Origin: Microcoleus sp. FACHB-1515
GTDB taxonomy: Bacteria; Cyanobacteriota; Cyanobacteriia; Elainellales; Elainellaceae
Reading direction: 5' to 3'
NCBI RefSeq assembly: GCF_014696105.1
Contig: NZ_JACJPO010000042.1
Location: forward strand, 1 to 51,408
Length of the DNA stretch: 51,408 nucleotides
Part shown: in pieces, positions 46,583 to 51,408 of the stretch
Position numbering within the stretch: the stretch's first letter is position 1
Layout of the letters: each line of letters opens with the position of its first letter
The notes under the pieces: model-generated
What the model was told of the DNA's origin: nothing
Databases searched by the model: none
What the model saw: only the letters and a program-made list of their open reading frames with translations
Position numbers and translations under genes: made by a program

Positions 46583-46750
46583 CTTGGGATGCCGATCGAG
46601 GGAATGCATCAAGATCTCTTTATCGAGAAATTTAGCAAATCAAATTCGAGTCGGCGCAATGCACTCCTTATAATAATGACAGAATGTAAACGAATTGGGC
46701 GGTTTGTGCTGCGATCGCCCGATATCACCCTTTTACCCTTGGAGCGACCG

Positions 46751-47227
46751 ATGCCGCTGATTACCACTGGCAAGCAATTTATTCGCGATCTCGAAAACGC
46801 AGGGACGCTGGCACTCTACACGCCGCTGGAAGGCGGGTCTGAAGGCCGATATCAGCGACGGCTCCGGGCAGCAGGCTATGGAATGCTGCACATCAGCGCT
46901 CGCGGCATGGGCGATCCGGCGGCGTATCTAATGGATGTTCACGGCGTTCGTCCGCCACATTTGGGCAAAAAAGATATTGGACGAGAAGGAGCGGTGGGGG
47001 CGCGTTACTTTGTGCCGCCGATCGCAGGCTATCAGCTTGAGAAACTTCAGCCGAACTCGAAAGGTTTAGCAATCTGGATCATCGAGGGCTTTGTGTTTTC
47101 GCGCCAAGAGCTTGAGTATTTGGCGGCGCTGCCAGCCGTTGAACCGCGCATCAAGGTGTGTGTGGAGATGGGGGGCGATCGAGTTTTCCGCTGGAGTCCG
47201 CTGAAGCAGGTTTTGGCCGCTGCGTAA
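46751..47227 (+). CDS. ndhN: NAD(P)H-quinone oxidoreductase subunit N (NDH-1)
   Basis: The product is 158 aa from ATG 46751 with GGAG 6 nt upstream; a longer frame exists but its first 54 residues show no family features. NdhN is an oxygenic-photosynthesis-specific subunit of the thylakoid NDH-1 complex, used in cyclic electron flow and respiration. Typical blocks are LITTGKQFIRDLENAG, LEGGSEGRYQRRLRAAGY, GVRPPHLGKKDIG and VEMGGDRVFRWSPL. Divergence from rplC is the common cyanobacterial arrangement. A TTATAAT at 46668-46674 may be its -10 box; the -35 is weak. Confidence 0.96.
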   Translation: MPLITTGKQFIRDLENAGTLALYTPLEGGSEGRYQRRLRAAGYGMLHISARGMGDPAAYLMDVHGVRPPHLGKKDIGREGAVGARYFVPPIAGYQLEKLQPNSKGLAIWIIEGFVFSRQELEYLAALPAVEPRIKVCVEMGGDRVFRWSPLKQVLAAA

Positions 47228-47320: not shown

Positions 47321-48043
47321 CTACAGATGATCTAATTGTCTTGTTAGGCACTCTAGCTCGTCGTCTGTGGAGTCAGCCGTAGTGCGATTCGCAGGGTTGG
47401 AAACAGTGCAACCTTTGAGTAGTTGTGCTTTCAACATTTCCAACTCAAGATCTGGATCTGTGCCATTTTCTAGCAAGGCAAACATCTCCTCTAAATCGAG
47501 CGCTTCTAGCTTCGGCTCAGCCTTCATTGAGGCAGCTTCCAGTTGGTTGAAATATGCTGTTGCTTTATCAATTTCCGACTTGTTCAAACTAGGAGCAGCG
47601 GGAGCAGGCGCAGTAAATTTTAGTACTGCTGCCAGCTTTTTCTCTTGAAGCTGAATAAGCTTGATTGTTAGATCACTCAGATTGTTCTTGAGAACATTCA
47701 GATTGCTCACCTGAGCATTAATTCGAGTCTTCTGTCCAATTGCTTTTTGTTTGCTGGTCTGTTCGCGAATTAATGCTTCTTTGGCAAGATCCTCTCGACC
47801 TCTTTGTTTCGCTAAATTAACTGTGCGACCCCAGTTCAGAACCTCTGAAAGCGTTTGCTTGTGCTGAATCTCTAGATTTCTGAAAGTAGATTCTGCAACA
47901 GCGATCGATTGAGCCAGGATGAGAATGCTTTTAGTCAACTCCTTAATTGATTCATCTTGTAAACACAAAGAGTCAAGCATTTCAGCTTCTCGACGAGCTA
48001 AATTAGCTCTCACTGTACGGTTAGTAGATTCAAACAGTCCCAT
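47321..48043 (-). CDS. PspA/IM30 (Vipp1)-family coiled-coil protein
   Basis: The product is 240 aa from ATG 48043 (MGLFESTNRTVRANLARREA); ATG 48058 adds five residues. The start MGLFxxxxRxVRANL is the usual PspA/IM30 opening. A long helical region (residues 30-145) with QHKQTLSEVLNWGRTVNLAK and GREDLAKEALIREQ follows the ESCRT-III-like helical hairpin plan. A Pro/Ala-rich break (FTAPAPAAPS) precedes an acidic C-terminus. It is a divergent family member, probably acting at membranes; whether it is the essential Vipp1 is doubtful. Confidence 0.72.
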   Translation of the reverse strand: MGLFESTNRTVRANLARREAEMLDSLCLQDESIKELTKSILILAQSIAVAESTFRNLEIQHKQTLSEVLNWGRTVNLAKQRGREDLAKEALIREQTSKQKAIGQKTRINAQVSNLNVLKNNLSDLTIKLIQLQEKKLAAVLKFTAPAPAAPSLNKSEIDKATAYFNQLEAASMKAEPKLEALDLEEMFALLENGTDPDLELEMLKAQLLKGCTVSNPANRTTADSTDDELECLTRQLDHL

Positions 48044-48058
48044 TTGATTTGTTCTCAT

Positions 48059-48415
48059 CTTGAAATTTATTTTTTGAAGATTTCATTGCAGTCATTGCCA
48101 GTGAGTAAAGGATGACTGTAATGATACCTTCCCACCAAGAACAGCCCCATCGTGTACATTCAGCACTTGCTAATATCAACTGGTTCATCATGTGAAATAT
48201 TGTATTTGCTTCAGTCTAAGGATAGCCTTTGGGAGAAGAAGCTTTTTGCAGAATAGAGTGAATCTTTGATGAATTAATGGTGATCGATAAAACAGCAGCT
48301 CTTTCTTCTAGTAACTAGTGATTGATGAATACAAGATCTAGAGTGCCCACGCACTGCCCCTACTGCACTGTGTTCCAAAAAATTTCTTTTGAATCTGAGC
48401 AATTAAGCTGAGATT
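48059..48415. other. A/T-rich region upstream of the PspA-like gene, no gene seen
   Basis: This stretch should hold the PspA-like promoter. I see no clear boxes. CTAGTAACTAG near 48310 is a short palindrome without obvious role. No RNA gene is visible before the tRNA terminator at 48416. Confidence 0.4.
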
Positions 48416-48456
48416 CCGCAAAAACGACAAAACCCGCCTCGAAAGACGGGCTTGTC
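48416..48456 (-). terminator. Rho-independent terminator of tRNA-Pro
   Basis: On the minus strand GACAAGCCCG (48456-48447) pairs with CGGGTTTTGTC (48436-48426), allowing one G-T pair and a bulge; the stem is followed by a TTTTT run. It begins 9 nt after the tRNA 3' end. Confidence 0.8.
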
Positions 48457-48464
48457 TTGATGAA

Positions 48465-48538
48465 TCGGGATGATAGGATTTGAACCTGCGCCCCCCTCGT
48501 CCCGAACGAGGTGCGCTACCAAGCTGCGCTACATCCCG
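48465..48538 (-). tRNA. tRNA-Pro(CGG), with a mismatch in the T stem
   Basis: The 74-nt minus-strand sequence folds as a full cloverleaf. Acceptor CGGGATG/CATCCCG, D arm GCGC/GCGC, anticodon stem CCTCG/CGAGG with loop TTCGGGA (anticodon CGG), variable loop of 5, T loop TTCAAAT, discriminator A. The T stem GCAGG/CCTAT has one C-A mismatch and a terminal G-U pair, which is weaker than usual. CCA is not encoded. A phage-type integrase begins 74 nt from its 5' end, and no clear promoter lies in that gap. The 3' side has its own terminator. It may be an attachment-site copy. Confidence 0.93.
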
Positions 48539-48567
48539 TTGCTTTTTAGCGGGTTTCAGCCATTTGA

Positions 48568-48611
48568 ACCGTACCGTATCTGTACCTTCCGCAATCAGGA
48601 AGGGTACGGTT
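48568..48611 (+). promoter_or_regulatory. Overlapping hairpins covering the integrase ribosome-binding site
   Basis: CCTTCC (48585-48590) pairs with GGAAGG (48598-48603), which is also the integrase Shine-Dalgarno, 8 nt before ATG 48612. An alternative pairing is ACCGTACC (48568-48575) with GGTACGGT (48603-48610). Pairing could hide the ribosome-binding site; alternatively these are integrase or excisionase DNA sites. Confidence 0.5.
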
Positions 48612-49766
48612 ATGGCACGGCAAAGAGGCGCGAAAGGTGGCATCCACATCGAGAATCGATCGGGTCGGTTGGTGCTGCGCTGGAGCTACCAGGGACAGCG
48701 CTACTATCTCAGCCTCAACCTCGCTGACACGGCTCTGAACCGCAAGCTCGCCGCTGCTCGATCGCTGGAGATTGAAAGAGACATCGCCTATGGAGAGTTT
48801 GACCCAACCTTAGAGCGCTATGGCAAAGCTCCAACGATCGCCCGCAATGATGAGCCAACAAACTCGACTCCAGCAACGGTGATCGAGGTTTGGGAAGCTT
48901 ACTATCAGTCGATCGCCTCGACCCTATCCAAAAGCTCACAAGAGAAGTACATCGGAACGAGAGGACGCTTACAGCAGTTTTTTGGGCTAGAGCGTCAAGC
49001 TGCCGACCTCACCAAAAACGACGCGATCGAGTTCGTCACCTGGTACAGCAATCAGGTGACAGCCCGAACGGTGAAAGAAGTTTGCTGTCGGATTCACAAT
49101 GCTTGGCTTCATGCTGGTCTGTCTGCCGATGTTTGGAAGGATGCAGCCAGCCGCCTTAAGCCGACACCGACCGAGCCGCCGCAGCCGTTCACTCAAACTC
49201 AGGTGAGCGCGATTCTCACTTTCTTGAAAGTGCATCACTCCCACTACTACCCATTCGTGGCGTTTCTGTTTCTGACAGGGGTACGGCTCGGTGAAGCGAT
49301 CGGACTGCGGGCAAACGCCATTTCGGAAGACCTGACGGCGATCGTTGTCCGCGAATCGTTCTCTAGAGGACAAAGACGACCCACCAAGACGGGCAAAATT
49401 CGCAGTATTCCCACAAATGAGGCTTTACGGCTCCTGTTAGCTGAGCAATTGGCAAAGCGTCACGAATGGCGATTGAGCGGCAACTATCAAATTCCGCTGG
49501 CTGACCTGCTGGTGTTTCCGGCTAATGGCAACAGCCCGATAGACGATCACAACTTCAGAAATCGAGTCTGGAAACCAACGCTCAAAGCTTTGGGCATCCC
49601 CTACCGCAAGCCCTACAGCACCCGCAGTACGTTTGTTAGTCACGCCCTGGCTTCCGGTATGAATCCGGTCGATGTGGCTGCGATTACAGGCCATGACCCG
49701 CAGGTGATGTTTCAGCATTACGTGGGGTTAGTCGCGTGGCTGAAGTTGCCTGACCTGTATCAGTGA
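48612..49766 (+). CDS. Phage-type site-specific integrase (tyrosine recombinase)
   Basis: The product is 384 aa from ATG 48612 with GGAAGG upstream; the frame is open through the tRNA but translation starts here. An N-terminal arm-binding domain (GGIHIENRSGRLVLRWSYQG) precedes a SAM-like core domain (about 85-185). The catalytic domain has Arg in LTGVRLGEAIGL, YSTRSTFVSHALASG and GHDPQVMFQHY, with the Tyr nucleophile. The second-box His is replaced (YSTR instead of HxLR), as in many phage integrases. It should integrate the element at the neighbouring tRNA-Pro. It differs clearly from the broken integrase at 377-1411. Confidence 0.92.
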   Translation: MARQRGAKGGIHIENRSGRLVLRWSYQGQRYYLSLNLADTALNRKLAAARSLEIERDIAYGEFDPTLERYGKAPTIARNDEPTNSTPATVIEVWEAYYQSIASTLSKSSQEKYIGTRGRLQQFFGLERQAADLTKNDAIEFVTWYSNQVTARTVKEVCCRIHNAWLHAGLSADVWKDAASRLKPTPTEPPQPFTQTQVSAILTFLKVHHSHYYPFVAFLFLTGVRLGEAIGLRANAISEDLTAIVVRESFSRGQRRPTKTGKIRSIPTNEALRLLLAEQLAKRHEWRLSGNYQIPLADLLVFPANGNSPIDDHNFRNRVWKPTLKALGIPYRKPYSTRSTFVSHALASGMNPVDVAAITGHDPQVMFQHYVGLVAWLKLPDLYQ

Positions 49767-49791
49767 AGTCGCGATCGGTAATGAGCGCTTT

Positions 49792-50139
49792 TCAAAACAA
49801 GAAGGCTTCTATTCTAGCCATCACTTCATCCATCAAATCGCGAGGGGCTGTTTCAGCAAACCTAACGTCTCTATGCTGCCAGTCCAAGCTTTTAATTTGA
49901 TCCACCAAAACAACGCCCGATGTATGCATAGTCTCGATCAGTGCAACCTCAAAAGGATACCCTTTTGCTCTGCTGGTGATAGGGCAAAAGAGGGCTAACC
50001 CTGTAGTCTTGTTATATTTCAGGGGAGATATAACAATGGCGGGGCGATGCCCTCTTTGCTCACGACCCGTCTGTGGATCGAAATTTAACCAAACGATGTC
50101 ACCTCGCGCAGGGATGTAGGTAGAGCTACCAGATTTCAC
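49792..50139 (-). CDS. MazF/PemK-type endoribonuclease toxin
   Basis: The product is 115 aa from GTG 50139, overlapping the upstream antitoxin gene by 14 nt. The fold signature is complete: ARGDIVWLNFDPQTGREQRG, HRPAIVISPLKYN, LFCPITSRAKGYPF and VLVDQIKSLDW. MazF toxins cleave mRNA at short sequences. Gene order antitoxin-toxin and overlap are typical of a type II toxin-antitoxin pair. Convergent with the integrase, 25 nt apart. Confidence 0.92.
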   Translation of the reverse strand: MKSGSSTYIPARGDIVWLNFDPQTGREQRGHRPAIVISPLKYNKTTGLALFCPITSRAKGYPFEVALIETMHTSGVVLVDQIKSLDWQHRDVRFAETAPRDLMDEVMARIEAFLF

Positions 50140-50410
50140 TACCTACGGATCTCCCAGTATCCACCTCATCATGCAAATTCTCAGGAGTTACTTCAGTCAG
50201 TAGATCATCGAGGTTATACTTCTGCCTGCGTGTCCAGCGCTCCTCTTCGGGGATGAATGCTGGATCTGCGTCTTCGGGAATTGGGTAAGAAACAACGCCA
50301 GCATACTTTCCGCCCCGTGACCGCACCACCTTCAGCAGGTAGTGTCTCTGTGAAGTGAAGTCCTGCCGTCGCTCTTGCCGAAGGCACTTTGCTCTGTTTC
50401 TGCTTTTCAT
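50126..50410 (-). CDS. MazE/PemI-like antitoxin with an atypical N-terminus
   Basis: The product is 94 aa from ATG 50410, with GGGAGG 6 nt upstream. The last 30 residues, from YNLDDLLTEVTPENLHDEVD to VGSEIW, are the standard MazE/PemI toxin-binding tail. The first 60 residues (MKSRNRAKCLRQERRQDFTS then HYLLKVVRSRGGKYAGVVSY) do not look like the usual AbrB/SpoVT DNA-binding domain of MazE. It may be a domain-swapped antitoxin or a partly decayed gene. The overlap with the toxin supports function. Confidence 0.8.
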   Translation of the reverse strand: MKSRNRAKCLRQERRQDFTSQRHYLLKVVRSRGGKYAGVVSYPIPEDADPAFIPEEERWTRRQKYNLDDLLTEVTPENLHDEVDTGRSVGSEIW

Positions 50411-50581
50411 AGCCGCCCTCCCTACTTCTGTGAGCAACGCGCTGGTATCACCTGTGATGATTAACCATTACACTTTTGCCTTATTTCGATTCTAGTATTG
50501 AATCTCAATATAAAAATCGCTCATGCGGGTTAAAACTTGTATCACTCAAGCGGTTCAGGCGTTTTAGGCCGTTAAAAGTGA

Positions 50582-50914
50582 CTAAACCCGCCGCCAGTTC
50601 CGCCCGTGTTGCCAGTAGTCGCTGTCAGGACAGTCGGAGGCTACTAACCCGATGTCATTGACGTTAGGGCGATCGAAGTCATGGGAGAAAGGGCAAATAT
50701 TCTCTTCCTGTCTCTCCCTGTCATTTTGATCGCCCTGCATTGCCTTTTCAGCCCTCAGCAATTCGCGCTTAGCGCTCCATTTCTTCCTACTGGCATGATT
50801 CCTCAAAGTCCCGTGCTTTGGGCGTTTAGGGTTGCCCGTAGCCTCGCGGGAAAGCTCGCAAAGCTCCGCGCCATCTGCGTACAGTAACCAAAGCTCATTC
50901 CAGTCAGGGCGCAT
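50582..50914 (-). CDS. Phage terminase-small-subunit-like HTH protein
   Basis: The product is 110 aa from ATG 50914. The first 60 residues form a helix-turn-helix region with the motif GTLRNHASRKKWSAKRELLR, typical of small phage terminase or transposase-associated N-domains. The second half is polar and acidic with no recognised domain. Either a phage packaging remnant or a small DNA-binding regulator of the element. It lies upstream of the TA pair on the same strand. Confidence 0.6.
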   Translation of the reverse strand: MRPDWNELWLLYADGAELCELSREATGNPKRPKHGTLRNHASRKKWSAKRELLRAEKAMQGDQNDRERQEENICPFSHDFDRPNVNDIGLVASDCPDSDYWQHGRNWRRV

Positions 50915-50934
50915 CGTTAGTTAGGGCAAAAAAG

Positions 50935-51282
50935 TTAGGCGAAAACACTGTAAGTCTGCAAGCATCGATCGCGAACTCGATTGAATTCCCAATCTGCACA
51001 AAGGCCATGAAAATTGTGAATTTCGAGTAGTTGTCGCGCATTTTGCCAAGCTTTGATCTCTCGCTGACTATCGGTGTCGGGAGCGCTGTCGATCAAGTGA
51101 GCTAGTTCGTGCAAAATGATCGCCGTCATCCCGGCAGTGGGGCGCACACGGCAGACATCGAGCGCAAATCGACAGCACTCCCAATTGTCTAAAACAATTG
51201 CTTTTGTCGGGCGATGAGCTACACCTACGGAATTTTCCCGCATTCCAAGTTTTTGCTTGACCTGGGAAGCGCTTTCATCCAA
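50935..51282 (-). CDS. HELAH zinc-metallopeptidase-like protein (start uncertain)
   Basis: The frame is 115 aa from a TTG at 51282; no ATG lies in frame before the upstream stop. MTAIILHELAHLIDSAPDTD carries the HExxH zinc motif, as in ImmA/IrrE-type and SprT-like small peptidases. The C-terminal part (IKAWQNARQLLEIHNFHG) is helical and has no obvious third ligand motif. ImmA-like peptidases often cleave repressors of mobile elements; that role here is inference. 51283-51408 holds no recognised gene. Confidence 0.65.
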   Translation of the reverse strand: MDESASQVKQKLGMRENSVGVAHRPTKAIVLDNWECCRFALDVCRVRPTAGMTAIILHELAHLIDSAPDTDSQREIKAWQNARQLLEIHNFHGLCADWEFNRVRDRCLQTYSVFA

Positions 51283-51408
51283 AACAAAAATCTCGGGTAG
51301 AGATGTAGAAGTAATGATTCAGGGTTGTAAACTCGCATTGTAGTGGTGGATGAAGTACCAAATTGCTCCAATATGGTTAGCAAGCTTCTTTGAGAACGAG
51401 AGTGTCTT

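Follow-up and report, generated by a model that had tools for sequence, protein, structure and literature searches.

The stretch analysed here, which we call the window, is the entire contig C37 (51,408 bases) of a 5.79-Mb genome (G000) in 96 contigs. ARAGORN finds a sole tRNA in it, tRNA-Pro(CGG) on the minus strand. As the original prediction had it, an integrase gene lies on the 5' side of this tRNA. The gene encodes a tyrosine integrase and diverges from the tRNA, and the gap from the tRNA 5' end to the integrase start is 73 nt (the prediction had said 74). The features of the locus are:

46589-47227, plus strand: ndhN, a chromosomal gene on the host side of the tRNA copy (Pfam NdhN, E 1.4e-72)
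48430-48453, minus strand: terminator-like hairpin at the 3' side of the tRNA, probably part of the original flank in the chromosome (hairpin scan and alignment with the congener G001)
48465-48538, minus strand: tRNA-Pro(CGG), full-length copy, read as a probable attR (ARAGORN, Rfam and comparison with contig C10)
48539-48611, no strand: gap between tRNA and integrase, with no tRNA promoter recognised (promoter scan and box test)
48571-48588, minus strand: arm-type-like site with two TACC/GGTA units, identical with the window 18-mer described below; putative arm site (genome search and paired-end alignment)
48612-49766, plus strand: tyrosine integrase with an arm-binding domain (Phage_integrase and Arm-DNA-bind_2)
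49792-50139, minus strand: MazF/PemK-like gene on the element side (Pfam)
50126-50437, minus strand: small ORF upstream of the MazF/PemK-like gene, without a Pfam match, on the element side (Pfam search)
48539-51408, no strand: predicted portion of the integrated element in the window (HIP1 count, GC and sharing of contig ends)

The integrase has 384 residues, begins with an ATG at 48612, stops at 49766 and reads away from the tRNA; an upstream TTG start inside the tRNA is likewise open. The catalytic residues R225, K259, R338, H361 and Y370 are all present. The usual histidine of the HxxR box is replaced by Y335, and the same tyrosine is found in 82 of 92 aligned relatives. Since the protein keeps the catalytic residues of its relatives, its sequence gives no sign of a dead enzyme. 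The MazF/PemK-like gene and the small ORF upstream of it (49792-50437, minus strand) come directly after the integrase and are likely a toxin-antitoxin pair. On the 3' side of the tRNA we noted a PspA/IM30-like ORF (47321-48058, minus strand) slightly under the Pfam cut-off. Identity to its closest matches among relatives is about 36-39%, and the tRNA-Pro places seen there hold none of these.

The tRNA itself is weakened, as predicted. Position C 48488 stands opposite A 48474 in the T stem, the single non-standard pair marked by cmscan. The Rfam tRNA score of the window copy is 59.6 bits, compared with 65.6 for a second copy on contig C10 and 65.7 for the gene of the congener G001. The tRNA-Pro(CGG) genes in the loci examined have seven T-stem types, of which six are fully paired and only that of the window is broken (G-U counted as paired). 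The faulty pair is U-A, C-G, U-G, A-U or G-C in the other types, always paired.

The suggested check for another tRNA-Pro(CGG) in the genome gave a positive answer. Four Pro-tRNA matches were found, typed by ARAGORN as CGG (window), CGG (C10), TGG (C30) and GGG (C19). The C10 gene lies at 136909-136982 on the plus strand and its T stem is paired. It shares about 75 nt with the window copy with two differing bases, at window positions 48491 and 48488; the change at 48488 creates the C-A pair, and nucleotides 1-47 of the tRNA are identical. Besides the other Pro tRNAs on C4 and C30, no further fitting copy of the tRNA 3' end was found in G000. On C4, near 80306 (L132, L090), there is a tRNA cluster (Pro, Leu, Lys, Gln and Ile among others) whose Pro-tRNA is unlike the other Pro genes of the genome.

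Both copies were then compared for a promoter. A sigma-70-like scan of 48300-48800 recognised none, in line with the earlier remark that the gap holds no clear tRNA promoter, and the same scan finds none at the C10 copy either. Since it is blank there too, the box TGTGNTANNNTA is the better promoter test. C10 matches 8/8 of its specified bases, G001 7/8 and the window copy 5/8, the commonest value among shuffles. In C10 the box reads TGTGATACACTA and lies 24 nt before the tRNA, and the box of G001 is in a like place. The comparison covered 167 distinct upstream sequences; many belong to tRNA clusters, which do not show the box. Judged by the box, the window copy would be silent.

The flanks of the two copies were aligned with those of the G001 tRNA, with 300 shuffles for significance. 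The 5' flank of C10 resembles the 5' flank of G001 (score 37, shuffle maximum 28), and the 3' flank of the window resembles the 3' flank of G001 (score 62, shuffle maximum 28), whereas the 5' flank of the window does not stand out (score 24, shuffle maximum 25). The host-type halves are therefore the 5' side of C10 and the 3' side of the window. The latter includes the hairpin (48453-48430, minus strand), the native-looking terminator of the original prediction. As one hairpin found against a shuffle mean of 0.6 it is weak alone, but at the terminator 34 of 36 aligned columns match the G001 flank. A single tRNA in G001 thus has a 5' flank of the C10 type together with a terminator of the window type, as would be expected of the original site. 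However, beyond the terminator the 3' flank of G001 also resembles the 3' flank of C10, its element side (score 51, shuffle maximum 25). G001 may therefore itself carry the end of an element, and cannot serve as a clean empty site. A search of the G001 assembly, which is 82% complete, gave no relative of the window integrase, although an empty result of this search is no proof. The same tRNA between the same flanks, lacking the integrase, did not turn up in relatives. The genes neighbouring the window and C10 sites do not occur together near the tRNA in relatives, and synteny therefore lends no support.

The other two sides look foreign. The HIP1 motif, GCGATCGC, occurs at 1.22/kb left of the window tRNA and at 1.41/kb left of the C10 tRNA. 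On the foreign sides it is absent from 2,870 bases (window) and from 7,112 bases (C10), where about 3.5 and 8.7 would be expected at the window rate. The GC content of 48539-51408 is 0.512, versus 0.532 left of the window tRNA. Among the genes on the foreign side of C10 are those of a 183-residue integrase, a TerB-like protein and an HTH regulator. This small integrase (L016:10334-10885), at the near end, consists of the catalytic domain only; its relatives occur in 133 of 388 genomes, in many cases on small contigs.

An 18-mer, AAGGTACAGATANGGTAC, occurs exactly twice in G000 and in none of the 387 other genomes (388 searched). The two sites are 17/18 alike. One lies in C10, 79 nt beyond the 3' end of the tRNA; the other, at 48571-48588 of the window, precedes the 5' end of its tRNA by 32 nt. 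Each is on the foreign side and points to its own tRNA; the pair is mutually inverted (score 31, shuffle maximum 22). We infer that the two 18-mers are integrase arm sites at both ends of one element, and that C10 and the window would represent these two ends. The contigs are unjoined in the assembly. Both end in 111-123 nt common to other contigs (the last ~114 bases of the window are of this kind), and since both ends are shared sequence, the assembly cannot join them. The matching repeat that the original prediction wanted sought to the right thus has its candidate on another contig, C10, the window breaking off in those shared bases.

The C10 tRNA is paired and has the promoter box, the 18-mer occurs only beside the two tRNAs, and the foreign sides are free of HIP1; together these make the window copy most likely an attR. 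We therefore propose, with a probability of about 0.8, that the window tRNA is the attR, the far-end copy left by an element integrated in the single original tRNA-Pro(CGG) gene of this genome, and that the attL lies on C10. The two tRNA copies have fitting orientations but are on two unlinked contigs. As in other tRNA-integrated elements, a tyrosine integrase lies inside the proposed element beside the attachment copy. The suggestion of a non-functional attachment copy is well supported by this second tRNA-Pro(CGG) with paired T stem and promoter box, and by the resemblance of the copies to element ends.

Integration would have split the original gene. At C10 (136909-136982) the original promoter and 5' part would be joined to a 3' part and terminator supplied by the element, giving a working gene. 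The window attR would keep the original chromosomal 3' flank and terminator, with element DNA upstream, and since its upstream side is now element DNA, its promoter would be lost. Freed from selection, the attR copy would then have gained two changes, one of which breaks the T-stem pair. The element attachment site would have held the whole tRNA sequence, which would make the far copy full length. SLP1 of Streptomyces is an element of this kind, with a whole tRNA in its attachment site. The integrase gene would sit at the attR end, divergent from the tRNA copy, an arrangement referred to below as OD.

The 5' part of the window copy should then derive from the element. The earlier idea that the element had replaced the tRNA 5' part is compatible with this, except that the crossover cannot be placed within nucleotides 1-47 because both copies are identical there. 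Two other crossover schemes were considered and dropped. Reverse integration at the near-palindromic anticodon arm does not fit, as the window copy has a true 5' half with a D arm and no mirrored 3' half. A T-loop crossover joining different T stems is disfavoured: C10 should then carry the matching 3' strand of the element, yet both copies have CCTAT.

The inverted orientation of the 18-mers is the chief result against the simple one-element reading, and it leads to the strongest of the alternatives. There, two separate elements would have entered the same type of site, C10 holding the near end of one and the window an end of the other, with the partner ends missing or decayed. Besides the inverted, not direct, arm-like sites, the small integrase of C10's own, the lack of a link between the contigs and the tandem copies of such sites in relatives, e.g. 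G302, would all suit two elements. But the genome has the 18-mer at two sites only, the tRNA 3' end has no third copy apart from the Pro tRNAs on C4 and C30, and each flank pair fits one original site, so we regard two elements as improbable.

Much less probable still is a second working tRNA-Pro(CGG) in the window, expressed from element DNA, with an element that targets tRNA 5' ends. The score of 59.6 bits does exceed the Rfam gathering score of 29, and displaced 5' tRNA fragments occur in 159 of 3,919 islands in the available text of the Islander study (PMC4383910). A working gene is contradicted by the T-stem C-A pair, unique among the tRNA-Pro(CGG) types examined, and by the missing promoter box; moreover, the C10 gene would suffice. 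An assembly artefact, in which a wrong join at the 75-nt tRNA repeat made the window arrangement, is the least likely of all: the repeat is on both contigs and these are short-read-like, but the shared 111-123 nt at the contig ends suggest a word length above 75 nt, swapped joins would still leave an element end at the tRNA 5' end or at the terminator, and four other genomes show this order within assembled contigs.

The window integrase (P0001) has matches in 171 of 388 genomes of the class. Removal of 8 duplicates left 150 distinct integrases in the 156 loci surveyed. Of these, 112 are preceded by a tRNA at a distance of up to 600 nt, 35 are not, and 3 are cut by the sequence end. The tRNA 3' end faces the integrase (STI) in 109 of the 112, and only three are OD: the window, G254 and G047. 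Judged by eye, the far copies of STI elements in nine other genomes start within the anticodon arm and are limited to the tRNA 3' part; the same is true of the tRNA-like stretches in all four viral contigs found. Since STI far copies are partial, the full-length far copy of the window is unlike them. In G302 (C7 near 328299, L123) the ~120 nt after a far attachment copy are almost the same as the near-end flank in that genome (L124), a sign of elements arranged in tandem at a single tRNA. Relatives of P0001 also occur in plasmids (5 records) and phages (34 records), in every case with less than 60% identity; a tRNA search of the plasmids gave unrelated tRNAs only.

The order tRNA, element, integrase, tRNA copy is assembled within contigs of G254, G047, G117 and G048, and in all four the integrase is at the far copy and divergent from it. 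Contig C30 of G254 has two full tRNA-Gly copies in direct orientation, 10,222 bases apart, with an 88-nt identical repeat (a 10.2 kb element). The G047 element (6.7 kb) has a 120-nt repeat (99%) that holds the full tRNA-Val, including 44 nt before the tRNA. The repeat of the G117 element (18.5 kb) is 65 nt, 59 nt of it tRNA, and that of the G048 element (6.1 kb) is 103 nt, with the tRNA from nucleotide 11. Full-length tRNA copies are thus present at both ends in two of the four (G254 and G047). Direct arm-like repeats are found at the ends of G047 (score 42, maximum 26), G117 (42, maximum 24) and, barely, G254 (29, maximum 28), in contrast to the inverted pair of G000; no shared site stands out at the ends of G048. 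In G254 a 44-nt sequence occurs on either side of the far tRNA-Gly copy (L292:15395-15560) in inverted orientation (score 63). Another integrase, an STI one, begins on the 3' side of this copy, so two elements may lie back to back there. Full tRNA pairs in two further genomes were rejected as elements. In G027 the two copies have similar flanks on either side and no integrase between them, and in G021 the copies are on two contigs with near flanks alike.

A search with the G254 integrase gave 30 loci: 18 OD, 6 STI and 6 without a tRNA-like match within 700 nt. Twelve of the 18 OD integrases face a full-length tRNA and six a fragment; because these loci were among those from which the tRNA library was built, full identity follows by construction. 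In a smaller sample (n=80; 79 STI, 1 OD) the window had been the only OD case, which the counts of 3/112 and 18/30 overturned. The original statement that integrases usually lie at a tRNA 3' end thus holds for most of the family (109/112) and fails for one clade. This clade is seen in a larger tree of 169 integrases labelled by their upstream tRNA or fragment (131 STI, 24 OD, 14 none), from which rows below 900 or above 1,500 bases or with more than 3 stops were excluded. OD requires 8 changes in this tree vs 22.8 in shuffles. An OD-rich clade of 30 (99% SH-aLRT) comprises 19 OD, 5 STI and 6 without tRNA. The window integrase is one of the other 139 (126 STI, 8 none, 5 OD); its branch is long, and it joins no small group with good support. 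In a smaller tree, holding it together with four OD integrases was not rejected (p-AU 0.82).

A tentative and rather unlikely account is that these integrases use a tRNA target in either orientation, the core and arm sites having been turned round more than once. Such turns would have shifted the integrase gene away from the attL end to the attR end, and would let the element carry a complete tRNA gene. The window would then be a separate turn of this kind, still visible in its inverted arm-like sites.

Among known systems is that of ptwF, a tRNA-Thr pseudogene that lies at the end of CP4-6. The available text of Panis et al. 2010 (PMC2951348) names the divergent arrangement OD among its InTr shapes and counts 736 STI and 438 OC of 1,273 pairs, with OD and SIT together below 8%. 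The OD pairs described there (ptwF-intF) are like the window in that integrase and tRNA are adjacent, opposite and divergent and the integrase promoter region overlaps the attachment region; autorepression was measured for E. coli ptwF-intF (PMC2951348). In the window the genes are likewise adjacent, opposite and divergent, with the arm-like site inside the 73-nt gap. Unlike ptwF-intF as presented in that source, the window has a full-length tRNA copy and a cyanobacterial integrase with an arm-binding domain. The window is thus a divergent integrase at a complete tRNA copy, a variant of a rare known arrangement.

The cyanobacterial STI relatives (e.g. G302, G328, G247) and the phage-like contigs share with it the arm-binding tyrosine integrase, tRNA targets and arm-like GGTA repeats. 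They differ in that the integrase is beside the attL and reads away from the tRNA 3' end, and in that the far copies hold the 3' part only. The islands of Islander (PMC4383910) likewise combine a tyrosine integrase with a tRNA target; one of their ends has the restored tRNA and the opposite end the displaced copy, as is proposed for the element of the window. As far as its available description goes, Islander maps islands by a tRNA and its fragment and rejects matches within full-length tRNAs, so an element such as that of the window would be missed. In tRNA-dependent lysogeny (PMC10865867) the element supplies tRNA function lost by integration into a tRNA gene, as the element proposed here would. 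In the part of that report available, attP and attB share ~10 bp and a separate phage tRNA is required, whereas here the shared stretch is ~75 nt, not a short core, and the tRNA would be rebuilt at the junction. A literature search turned up no description of the window element, which is no proof of absence.

The odd tRNA of the window is accounted for as the probable scar of a mobile element, and some elements are seen to form a group that ends, on the far side, in a full-length copy of the tRNA. These full-length copies are annotated as genes, as with the two tRNA-Pro(CGG) in G000. Since the family has close integrase pairs with the gene at opposite element ends, the effect of gene position on regulation and excision is testable.
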